Translations under genes and position numbers: made by a program | Source: Candidatus Nomurabacteria bacterium | GTDB lineage: Bacteria; Patescibacteriota; Minisyncoccia; Phycocordibacterales; UBA9973 | NCBI GenBank assembly: GCA_023267435.1 | Contig: JAHFNH010000006.1 | Coordinates: 1 to 39,676 of the forward strand | Length of the DNA stretch: 39,676 nucleotides | Reading direction: 5' to 3' | Shown here: piece after piece, positions 35,017-39,676 of the stretch | How the letters are laid out: each line of letters begins with the position of its first letter | How positions within the stretch are numbered: the stretch's first letter is position 1 | The notes under the pieces: generated by a model | The model's database searches: none | What the model was told of the DNA's origin: nothing | What the model saw: only the letters and a program-made list of their open reading frames with translations

Positions 35017-35262
35017 TTAGTAGTTGTTAGCTTTTATTATTATAGCTAGGAATGCAGACAACGCAAATAATATTCCAGAAACTATTGAAAGAATAAAAAG
35101 GAATTTTTCAAAACCTCGGCGAGTATGGTGGAAAGATCCGCCATCGCCCCCGCCCAAAGCGCCACCTACGCCTGCGCTGGATTGCTGGAATAAGATAGCT
35201 AATATGAGAACTATTGAAAGTATTACCTGCGCGTACGGCAGTATTTTGGCTACTAAATGCAT
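35017..35262 (-). CDS. secG: Preprotein translocase subunit SecG
   Basis: 'VILSIVLILAILFQQSSAGVGGALGGGDGGSFHHTRRGFEKFLFILSIV'. Confidence 0.92.
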   Translation of the reverse strand: MHLVAKILPYAQVILSIVLILAILFQQSSAGVGGALGGGDGGSFHHTRRGFEKFLFILSIVSGILFALSAFLAIIIKANNY

Positions 35263-35586: not shown

Positions 35587-37407
35587 ATGAAAAAACAACT
35601 ATTAATTGTGTTGATATCCTTAATGGGATTTAACACGTTCGCTTTGACAGTAACTGTGTCAGCAAACTTTTCGAGTACAACCAGTACTCAAGCAATTAGC
35701 TCTATTGGCTGGACGATACATGGCGGTGTTACTTTATGGAACTCTGCCAATTATTTTGAGCTTTATTACCAGGTGGTAGACTCTACTACTGGAGTTACTT
35801 CACCAGTTCAAATGTTAACTTATGGGGGTACTGCGGGAGATTCAGTTAATACTACCGGAGTTTCTTTTACTTTGACAGGATTAACTGCGGGAGATTATTA
35901 CAAAATAATTCCGCGTCTTGATTTATGGCAGAATAATGTGCTTGTAACAATGGCAGTTGGTGTACCAATGGTTTTTCAAACCCAGTGTGCTCCGCCTACA
36001 TTAAGTGCAAGTCAAACATCAGTGTGCAGTGGAAGTTCTGTAAACTTAATTGCAAGCGGATCAAACACATACACATTGGATAACACAGGTCAGACAGGTT
36101 CATCATTTATTGTTAATCCTGCTGCTACTACTACTTATACAGTAACAGCAGTGACAGCCAGTGGTTGTTCAAGTACAAATAGTATTACAATAACAGTGAA
36201 TTCAGTGCCGACCATTACCGTTTGTCCTGATCCTACCATTTGCCATGGAACTTCAACAGTTTTGAGTGCCAGCGGTGCAACGACCTATTCATGGTTACCA
36301 GCTACTGGATTAAGCAATGCAACAAGTGCATCACCGACTTCATCAGCAACAAGTACGACTGTTTATACCGTAACTGGTACCACAGGAGGCTGTAGCAATA
36401 CGGCTACCGTAACAGTTAATGTAACTGGCATTTCATTGAATACAGGTTCTAATGTAACTATTTGCCAGGGAGGTTCGACAACTTTAAGCTCTTCAAATGC
36501 AACTGTTTATTCTTGGTCACCGACCAATGGTTTGAGCGATCCGACTATTGCAAACCCGGTTGCCAATCCCAATGTTACAACTGTTTATACAGTAACTGGG
36601 ATAAATGGAAGTTGTACAGCAAAAGATAGCGTTAAGGTGAATGTGAATGTAAACAATACGAATGCAACTCTGACTGTTCCATCATCGAATCCTTGCAAGA
36701 TAGCCATGAATCACACTGTGACTCTTTCCGGCTCTCCGGCTCTTGGAGTATTTAGCGTCAACGGGAACCCTTTATCGGGAACTTCGCTTGATTTGTCTAC
36801 AATACCAGCAGGGAATACAGTTGTAGATTATACTGTGACCAACACTTATGGTTGTACAAAAACAGTATCGGCTAGTTTCGTCAACGATTCTGCGCCGATT
36901 GTGTATAGTTCAACAGCACCTGTTGGTACTACCAGTAAATCGTTCGATGCTAAAGGAGCATTCATTGATGATCTTAAAGTTATGGTTGTTGGTAGCAGTA
37001 CCATTTACAGTGCTTCTTTGCAAAACATGACATCTGCATCGTTTAATAATCTTCCGGCAACGTTAGTTCCGGGATCGAAAATTAAATTTTTGTATGGTGG
37101 TGTTGGAACTTCATGTTTTACAGATCAGGAAGCTGTGAGCGTACAGGAAGTAGTTAAGAATGAAGATGTTTACATTTATCCGAATCCTTTTGTTAGCGTA
37201 TTGCATATCGGAGTTCCTTTCGGGGAATATAAGATTACAATTACTAACATGCTTGGACAAGTAGTTCAAGATCTATCAGCACAGGGAGATAATTTCGAAG
37301 TAGAGAAGGGAGATTTATCCCCCGGTAAATACTTTGTAACTATCGTTTCTGCTAAGAATAAGGACGGAAAAAGCTCAACGGTTGTAAAACCGATTGTTGT
37401 TCAGTAA
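35587..37407 (+). CDS. Secreted Ig/PKD-like repeat protein with C-terminal T9SS (Por) sorting domain
   Basis: Signal peptide 'MKKQLLIVLISLMGFNTFA'; repeats 'TICHGTSTVLSASGATTYSWLPATGLSNATSASPTSSATSTTVYTVTGTTGGCSNTATVTVNV'; C-terminus 'VYIYPNPFVSVLHIGVPFGEYKITITNMLGQVVQDLSAQGDNFEVEKGDLSPGKYFVTIVS..KPIVVQ'. Confidence 0.9.
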   Translation: MKKQLLIVLISLMGFNTFALTVTVSANFSSTTSTQAISSIGWTIHGGVTLWNSANYFELYYQVVDSTTGVTSPVQMLTYGGTAGDSVNTTGVSFTLTGLTAGDYYKIIPRLDLWQNNVLVTMAVGVPMVFQTQCAPPTLSASQTSVCSGSSVNLIASGSNTYTLDNTGQTGSSFIVNPAATTTYTVTAVTASGCSSTNSITITVNSVPTITVCPDPTICHGTSTVLSASGATTYSWLPATGLSNATSASPTSSATSTTVYTVTGTTGGCSNTATVTVNVTGISLNTGSNVTICQGGSTTLSSSNATVYSWSPTNGLSDPTIANPVANPNVTTVYTVTGINGSCTAKDSVKVNVNVNNTNATLTVPSSNPCKIAMNHTVTLSGSPALGVFSVNGNPLSGTSLDLSTIPAGNTVVDYTVTNTYGCTKTVSASFVNDSAPIVYSSTAPVGTTSKSFDAKGAFIDDLKVMVVGSSTIYSASLQNMTSASFNNLPATLVPGSKIKFLYGGVGTSCFTDQEAVSVQEVVKNEDVYIYPNPFVSVLHIGVPFGEYKITITNMLGQVVQDLSAQGDNFEVEKGDLSPGKYFVTIVSAKNKDGKSSTVVKPIVVQ

Positions 37408-37530: not shown

Positions 37531-39676
37531 TTAAGCTTTAGGATGTGTGATGTATAACTTTCTTCCGATGATAGCTAATGCTATGATCGCAAGTATTAGA
37601 AATAGCCATCCGATCAATCGAGGCAGGGAACTTAATGCGAAGATAGAGTTCGCTTCAAGTCCGGTGCCTGTTGTCACAGAGTTTGTCACATAAGATATTT
37701 CATCTTTACTCAAGCTTGATCCGGTGACATTATAAGATGCCACTGCGGTAGTCACAAGAACATTCTGAAGGGAAGCATTAGAGTTAACTTTGCCTTTTAT
37801 TGTCATTGTACTTGTCTGATTTGGAGCCAAAGCTTTTATGTCGAAGGTTACAATGTTATTGCTTTCTAGCGTGCCTAGATCAGATTCAGTGAAATCAATC
37901 TCACTTGGAAGCTGGACGGTCAATTTTATATTTTCAAGATTCTTTGAAGCGACATTTTCGAAAGTTACAGAATAATCTACTTCATCTCCGACTGCGAGCT
38001 TTTCTTTCGTGGTTGTGATTCCAAGCTTGGCTGTCGCAACTCCAGAATAATCTTGAGAAGAATTGTTTGTGTCGTTTATAACTGGCACGTTATCCATGGA
38101 ATTTATAACATTAACATTTGATCCGTCTCCTGCTGTTGGAATTGTATTTGTATTGTCTGTCACTAGGACTATGTTGGGAGTTTGGAAGACAAGAATGTTT
38201 CCGTCATGAATCACACCTTGATTCACAGCTACTGCTCGGAAGTAGTAGATCGTATTTGGAGTTAAGTTCGTAACTACTTCTGAGAAGCTTATTGAAGCAG
38301 CTGTGCCTAAAGATTTTTGAGGTGTTGATAGATTTAAAGCAGATGTCTTTCCATATTGGAAATATCCTGTTGTTGCGGATCCATTTTGATTGATAAATAA
38401 TCCGTTCAGTTTTGCTGAAGTGGAAGTTTTCTGAGTTGCTTGAATTGTGGTGATTACTCCATTTAAGGAAGTTGAACCATTGGTAGGTGTGGTTGTGTTT
38501 GTTGTTGCGGGAGTAGTGGTTGTAGTTGTCTGGAAAGAAAGAATATTTCCTTTGACTGTGCCATAAGAATTGTTTGCGACAGCACGGAAATAATAAGTTG
38601 TGTTGGGAGTGAGGCCTGTAATATTTTGTATTAAAGATGAAACTACACTTGCTGTGCCTTGAGATGTGTGAACTGTCTCACTTGGAGTTCCTGCTAAAGT
38701 GCTTGAAGTGTTGTATTCAAACCAAGCTGTTGTCGGTGATCCATCTGGATTGATTGAACCGCCCAATGTTGCTGAAATGTTTATAACGTTTGTAGCATTC
38801 TGAGTGATGACTGTAGGTAGGAATACAATTCCACCACCTCCACCCCCGCCTCCACCACCGCCTATTGGGTTAATAGTGAAAGTAGAAGAACCAGATGTGC
38901 ATCCGCCATTGGCAACAGTAATATTTCCAGTACCAGCAGTAGTTGTGTCAGCTACGGTTAGACTAATAGTTAAAGAAATTGGACTCAAGACATTTGTTGT
39001 TCGTGCTGTTCCATTGAACAATGCAGAAGAAGTTCCGTTTACAAAATTGTTACCTGTGACAGTGACAAGAGTTGCTCCAGCTCCAGCTGTGACTGAATTA
39101 GGAGAAAGTAAAGTGATAGATGGACTTAATCCGCAACCGCCTCCTCCGCCAACTGCCAAAGTTGTAAAACTAATATTTGAGTTAACAAGATTTGGTCCGT
39201 CAGTAGCGACAAGCTTGTAGGTATATGAAGTGTTCGCTGTAAGTCCAGTCAAAGAAAAAGGAGGCAAGGTGACATTACCAATTCCTGTGATTCCGTTGAC
39301 TTGTGATCCCGGAAGGGTATTACCATTTTGATCTTGATACCAAACATTGATAGTTGTTCCATTTGGATTAACTACGCCGTTTAGAGTAGCTGTAGTTTGA
39401 GTGACGCCTGTTGCAGTGGCGGAGATGATGGAAGCGACAGGAGCTACTAGAGTTGTAAAACTAATATTTGAGTTAACAAGATTTGGTCCGTCAGTAGCGA
39501 CAAGCTTGTAGGTATATGAAGTGTTCGCTGTAAGTCCAGTCAAAGAAAAAGGAGGCAAGGTGACATTACCAATTCCTGTGATTCCGTTGACTTGTGATCC
39601 CGGAAGGGTATTACCATTTTGATCTTGATACCAAACATTGATAGTTGTTCCATTTGGATTAACTACGCCGTTTAGA
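37531..39676 (-). CDS. Large surface protein: Fn3-like repeats, poly-Gly linker, DUF11-like domain, C-terminal TM anchor (5' truncated by window end)
   Basis: Frame stays open to the window edge; listed 39558 start is an internal TTG. Repeats 'TATLNGVVNPNGT..W..LTGLTANTSYTYKLVATDG'; 'KLAVGDEVDYSVTFENVASKNLENIKLTVQLP'; C-terminal 'LIGWLFLILAIIALAIIGRKLY'. Confidence 0.88.
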   Translation of the reverse strand, partial: LNGVVNPNGTTINVWYQDQNGNTLPGSQVNGITGIGNVTLPPFSLTGLTANTSYTYKLVATDGPNLVNSNISFTTLVAPVASIISATATGVTQTTATLNGVVNPNGTTINVWYQDQNGNTLPGSQVNGITGIGNVTLPPFSLTGLTANTSYTYKLVATDGPNLVNSNISFTTLAVGGGGGCGLSPSITLLSPNSVTAGAGATLVTVTGNNFVNGTSSALFNGTARTTNVLSPISLTISLTVADTTTAGTGNITVANGGCTSGSSTFTINPIGGGGGGGGGGGIVFLPTVITQNATNVINISATLGGSINPDGSPTTAWFEYNTSSTLAGTPSETVHTSQGTASVVSSLIQNITGLTPNTTYYFRAVANNSYGTVKGNILSFQTTTTTTPATTNTTTPTNGSTSLNGVITTIQATQKTSTSAKLNGLFINQNGSATTGYFQYGKTSALNLSTPQKSLGTAASISFSEVVTNLTPNTIYYFRAVAVNQGVIHDGNILVFQTPNIVLVTDNTNTIPTAGDGSNVNVINSMDNVPVINDTNNSSQDYSGVATAKLGITTTKEKLAVGDEVDYSVTFENVASKNLENIKLTVQLPSEIDFTESDLGTLESNNIVTFDIKALAPNQTSTMTIKGKVNSNASLQNVLVTTAVASYNVTGSSLSKDEISYVTNSVTTGTGLEANSIFALSSLPRLIGWLFLILAIIALAIIGRKLYITHPKA
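39161..39676. repeat. Tandem repeat, period 291 bp (97 aa), identical over at least 225 bp
   Basis: 39161-39385 matches 39452-39676 base for base, to the window end. Confidence 0.95.

Follow-up and report, generated by a model that had tools for sequence, protein, structure and literature searches.

Type IX secretion systems (T9SS) span the outer membrane, their attachment complex works on the outer face of the cell, and the C-terminal sorting domains (CTDs) of their cargo are treated as markers of Bacteroidota that possess a T9SS. By what means CPR bacteria attach to particular hosts has long been asked. The closest described proteins are the type A cargo of Bacteroidota (PF18962/TIGR04183), among them gingipains, mirolase and SprB-like adhesins, which the protein analysed here resembles in its signal peptide, in its Ig-like or adhesin repeats and in a C-terminal CTD of about 75 amino acids whose motifs and predicted fold are the same. 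The signal peptides of Bacteroidota follow a Q-rule, with Gln at position +1 (PMC5837995). The attachment complex has been described for Porphyromonas, and mutual incompatibility has been reported between CTDs from different Bacteroidota species (PMC11285876). Patescibacteria are believed to lack an outer membrane and carry genes for a T4SS (PMC12102498). Outside subscription journals and preprints, no literature was found that links the T9SS or its CTDs with CPR bacteria.

The window, that is the whole stretch of 39,676 nucleotides that was analysed, encodes on its plus strand a protein of 606 amino acids, CTD protein 1, whose gene runs from ATG to stop (35587-37407; open reading frame call, Pfam and NCBIfam). 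The protein consists, in this order, of a signal peptide, a unique N-terminal region, Ig_7 repeats, a pre-CTD region and a T9SS type A CTD. The predicted Sec signal peptide, MKKQLLIVLISLMGFNTFA (35587-35643, plus strand), was recognised by its sequence pattern and by a crude caller, and the cleavage site NTFA^LTV places Leu at +1, not the Gln of the Bacteroidetes Q-rule. The Ig_7-type repeats (35995-36651, plus strand; residues ~137-355) scored 31.1 bits with PF19081 (Ig_7, CHU_C-associated; cut-off 27.3) and are up to 60% identical to repeats of Bacteroidia proteins, in agreement with the first-pass annotation, which had assigned them to Bacteroidetes adhesins. Among the matches listed from 295 genomes, the similarity ends by residue ~439 and there is no full-length counterpart; the protein, used as query against the contigs of the genome collection, gave no match. 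The pre-CTD region (36652-37173, plus strand) aligns, at residues ~367-529, with the paralogue CTD2 and with a protein of the related genome G010. The CTD itself (37174-37404, plus strand) occupies the extreme C-terminus, contains YPNPF, LGQ, LSPGKYFV and KPIVVQ, and scored 32.6 bits with PF18962 (Por_Secre_tail, residues 530-592; cut-off 27) and 31.9 bits with TIGR04183 (NCBIfam; cut-off 23). A profile of the C-terminal 247 amino acids and relatives matched the solved T9SS CTDs 8glk, 8glj, 8qb1 and 5hfs, and the modelled CTD, an Ig-like beta-sandwich with pLDDT mostly ~67-91, superposes on that of Tannerella mirolase (8qb1) at 2.1 Å with a TM score of 0.74 over the target, the model upstream of the CTD being of low confidence. 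No hydrophobic segment follows the signal peptide, so that a C-terminal transmembrane anchor is absent. The hallmarks of a Por/T9SS sorting domain that had been read from the sequence were thus found again in the motifs, in the profiles and in the modelled fold; by sequence and predicted fold the protein is a T9SS type A cargo, with putative CTD-dependent secretion.

The source genome (G000) is small, 0.8 Mb, and is CPR-like judging by its size, its gene content and its reported grouping; the bacterium is probably host-dependent. A six-frame search of the genome detected the window CTD with E = 1.5e-9 and two stronger matches, one on the same contig (C11) and one on contig C9, where the gene sits among ordinary CPR-type genes; the genome has therefore three CTD genes. 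At the left flank of the window gene lies that of SecG, a subunit of the Sec export channel (35017-35262, minus strand; domain search). On the right, and convergent with it, is the gene of a CPR-type surface protein, hereafter the anchor (37531-39675, minus strand), in which domain search revealed a PGGG repeat, fn3-like and DUF11 domains and a C-terminal membrane anchor. The anchor gene starts beyond the window, at about C11:39944, and the second CTD gene of C11 is located to its right, outside the window and divergent from it; the homologues of the anchor in related genomes are likewise divergent neighbours of CTD genes. The codon usage of the window gene is ordinary for the genome (31st percentile; GC3, 59th percentile). 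Other secreted proteins of the same genome look Bacteroidota-like. A protein of 201 amino acids on contig C19 (L097:1996-2601, minus strand), with a Bacteroidota-style signal peptide and a final F, resembles a small outer-membrane beta-barrel, which would be odd for a supposed monoderm, and has no Pfam match. Six more (L088:11147-12346, plus strand; L068:16938-17558, L066:13237-13803, L084:511-1491, L086:355-1279 and L088:6538-7074, all minus strand) have Q after the signal peptide; one is thioredoxin-like and the rest have no Pfam match.

CTD genes (PF18962, E <= 0.001) were detected in 24 of the 80 species of the genus, about a third, with 56 species lacking them, and 7 of the 10 sister genera sampled in the family have them as well. 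When the phylum was sampled evenly, 10 of 380 genomes carried them (5 of 380 over the cut-off); two of the ten are members of this genus, leaving 8 of 378 elsewhere. Hence, CTDs are concentrated in this clade, and at such a phylum-wide rate the match in the source genome is not due to chance. The possibility that such domains are common throughout the clade and passed on vertically, considered beforehand as contrary to a transfer, largely holds within the genus, the phylum being mostly devoid of CTDs. Contigs C15 and C14 of genome G123 (L043 and L044) are rich in CTDs and carry a transposase, lipoproteins and repeated GldM-like open reading frames; they are probably Bacteroidota contamination of that assembly.

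CTD genes occupy the same chromosomal positions in different species and are therefore resident genes. Locus I lies directly before the glutaredoxin gene in five species (G003, G006, G007, G022 and G028), the site being empty in many relatives. Locus II consists of a CTD gene and a divergent gene for an anchored surface protein (G000, G010, G016, G041, G065, G067 and G077); Locus III adjoins NusA in at least four species, and Locus IV is placed between MurI and ExoIII in two. A single recent transfer was rejected on account of these syntenic copies. The origin proposed initially, horizontal transfer from Bacteroidetes, stands as regards an ultimate Bacteroidota source and falls as regards an isolated or recent event. 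Some members deserve separate mention. The Locus IV mini-proteins (L024:1481-1843 and L324:2620-3024, both minus strand), of 120-134 amino acids, are almost only signal peptide and CTD, and could act as a decoy or regulator. One Locus I passenger contains a dockerin-like repeat just under the cut-off (L051:8539-10083, minus strand). Beside the anchored surface-protein genes of G007 and G075 are small secreted proteins (L315:11087-11839 and L316:8926-9603, both minus strand) of similar appearance, whose signal peptides end in AQ or TQ.

Profile searches did not detect SprA in any of the 40 CPR genomes with CTDs (completeness of 90% or more in 34); the same search found it in the 6 Bacteroidota/Ignavibacteria genomes used as positive control. 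PorU (peptidase C25) and GldM also gave no match over cut-off in the 40 genomes, in searches run without positive control. GldM matches below cut-off appeared only in G123, on Bacteroidota-looking contigs, and were set aside as T9SS parts for that reason. The profile searches of these 40 genomes hence revealed no T9SS encoded by the source clade, and the first reading of the window gene, as a T9SS cargo in a CPR-like genome, was confirmed as an observation, its interpretation being partly supported.

Where identities were measured, the tag is better preserved than the remainder of the proteins. Within the Locus I family the CTDs are 66% identical and the passengers 29% (21 of 21 pairs), and within the short family, formed by six proteins mostly of Locus III plus three others, the values are 60% and 23% (36 of 36 pairs). 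The Locus II family, that of the window protein, showed 31% for the CTD against 20% for the N-terminal part (15 of 15 pairs), the SecA encoded beside it being 83-89% identical in three of those genomes. The CTD was therefore better conserved than its passenger in 57 of 57 comparisons for the first two families and in 72 of 72 when Locus II is included, suggesting that it is under selection; its preservation is unusual and would suit a tag that is read outside the cells producing it. In a lineage in which the machine was not found, a tag better kept than its protein points to a reader outside the known machinery of the lineage. Moreover, the Ignavi-type CTDs of CPR scored 132 bits on an Ignavibacteria profile, against 127 for held-out Ignavibacteria CTDs, a comparison biased by a set picked for its similarity to the CPR CTDs. 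For CPR CTDs the nearest value is 0.67 to Ignavibacteria CTDs and 0.69 to each other, and they do not form one clade in a CTD tree (11 changes versus 17 shuffled) whose alignment is too short to settle monophyly. Being as near to Ignavibacteria as to each other and not one clade, they could have been recaptured repeatedly by recombination, which would also keep the tag intact and would itself imply a pressure for keeping it.

The N-terminal end of most of these proteins conforms to the Bacteroidota pattern as well. By a simple dipeptide test, Q follows the cleavage site in 47 of 52 CTD proteins, in 6 of 25 anchors and in 72 of 383 other proteins; an earlier automatic cleavage-site caller had given 30 of 52, an undercount, both methods being crude. 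Most CPR relatives thus follow the Q-rule, and the window protein is among the exceptions. A transmembrane anchor past the signal peptide was found in none of 55 CTD proteins, the window protein included, compared with 24 of 26 proteins of the anchor family. In all 14 genomes with at least two CTD genes a single CTD dialect is present, Bacteroidia-like in the source genome and Ignavibacteria-like in others. This pattern is partly the result of shared ancestry, and one of the 14 genomes (G123) looks contaminated. The incompatibility of CTDs between Bacteroidota species (PMC11285876) fits the requirement of a species-specific reader.

The CTD proteins would leave the CPR cell via Sec and, lacking a membrane anchor, would be retained wherever their CTD is recognised. 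The match of the CTDs to functional T9SS tags, the dialects and the incompatibility between species favour a reader of T9SS type, and hence that of the host, which must then be located on the outer face of the host. The most likely candidate would be the PorV/PorU-type attachment parts exposed there, by which the CPR adhesin would be docked on or linked to the host surface; the membrane-anchored surface protein encoded divergently may be its counterpart on the CPR cell, and the CTD dialect would mark the host lineage. We therefore favour, with a probability of roughly 0.4, Sec-exported adhesins whose CTD is read outside the cell by T9SS surface parts of a putative Bacteroidota or Ignavibacteria host, a reader that we infer. 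Against it speak the 56 species of the genus that have no CTD gene, the decay of the CTD in G042 and G016, a possible recapture of CTDs by recombination, the share of common ancestry in the dialect pattern and the missing Q of the window protein. More tentatively, host-type CTDs may let the host T9SS capture or covalently fix the CPR adhesins, the dialect following the host lineage. The initial suggestion that host machinery is used after contact survives in this form, as the most interesting reading and with indirect support; mimicry of host surface proteins and an undescribed secretion route, suggested alongside it, are conceivable alternatives.

The strongest alternative places the reader on the CPR cell itself, where the CTD would serve as an Ig-like module for non-covalent anchoring, for example by pairing with the divergent anchored protein, and no host machinery would be needed. 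The divergent CTD/anchor pair of seven genomes, with 207-362 bp between starts where measured, and the lack of a membrane anchor in the CTD proteins agree with it, and conservation of the CTD suits any binding function. However, no anchor gene of this family adjoins the Ignavi-type CTD genes of Loci I and III, and a function at home would explain neither why CPR CTDs remain indistinguishable from those of Ignavibacteria nor why Q is kept after the signal peptide; this reading seems to us rather unlikely.

A passive import, by which genes of host Bacteroidota are gained and lost and both the CTD and the Q signal peptides are functionless remnants, is improbable. It would explain the other Bacteroidota-looking secreted genes of the source genome, the patchy presence of CTDs, their unresolved tree and their decay: G042 keeps the Locus II pair (L310:6479-8203, plus strand) with a CTD that is a natural loss, without its YPNP part and with a signal peptide without Q, and G016 has an internal deletion in the CTD. 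Nevertheless, homologous passengers are found at the same locus in different species, the window gene has ordinary codon usage, and the CTD surpassed its passenger in each of the 72 comparisons. Furthermore, the Locus I passenger, whose structure model is of low confidence, gave no match in 197 Ignavibacteria genomes save three weak N-terminal ones, even though the CTD attached to it is 56-66% identical to its best matches there.

The CTDs look fully functional, and the genomes might secrete their CTD proteins by a T9SS of their own too divergent for detection, given that its absence comes from profile searches with a positive control for SprA only; that SprA, of ~2300 amino acids, was found in every control, and that Patescibacteria are believed to lack the outer membrane which a T9SS crosses (PMC12102498), make this very improbable. 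Equally far from likely is production or processing of the proteins within the host, following transfer of protein or nucleic acid into it, with signal peptide, Q and CTD addressed to its Sec, glutaminyl cyclase and T9SS. The two termini of most CTD proteins fit Bacteroidota export rules and Patescibacteria have T4SS genes (PMC12102498), but a protein with a Sec signal would ordinarily be exported by the CPR cell first. An artefact of a chimeric contig or contaminated bin, likely for G123, where the CTD genes are on contigs resembling Bacteroidota contamination, is hardly credible and was rejected for the loci used, the chimeric join initially feared being contradicted by a window without any N (a 10-N scaffold gap lies just beyond its right end), ordinary codon usage and GC3, flanking genes of CPR type to the left and right, and a gene order that recurs in independent assemblies.

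If the host reading is true, the CTD would be an inter-species sorting signal, the hosts of uncultivated CPR could be predicted from sequence, and there would be a molecular handle on how these bacteria hold specific hosts. CTD matches in metagenomes, in any case, do not imply a T9SS. The significance lies in the clade-wide pattern rather than in the lone window gene.

Compared with the known systems, the anchored surface proteins of CPR (the homologues of 37531-39675) are, like the CTD proteins beside which they are encoded, secreted, repeat-rich and probably adhesive, and differ from them in having a transmembrane anchor, mostly no Q and no CTD. Unlike the cargo of Bacteroidota, the CTD proteins belong to a CPR genus in which no CTD-positive genome had a detected SprA; for the Locus I passenger Ignavibacteria gave no counterpart beyond the three weak matches, and the window copy is devoid of Q. 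Among the matches listed for Ignavi-type CTD queries against genome contigs were Ignavibacteria, further Bacteroidota and some members of other phyla, none of them named as CPR. The CTD proteins of Ignavibacteria (QNYPNPFNPST...) resemble the dialect of the sister species most, with best matches 56-66% identical, an equal profile score and Q after the signal peptide in 84 of 97; they differ in that Ignavibacteria possess their own T9SS, with SprA present in the controls, and in that CPR use the same kind of tag on different passengers.
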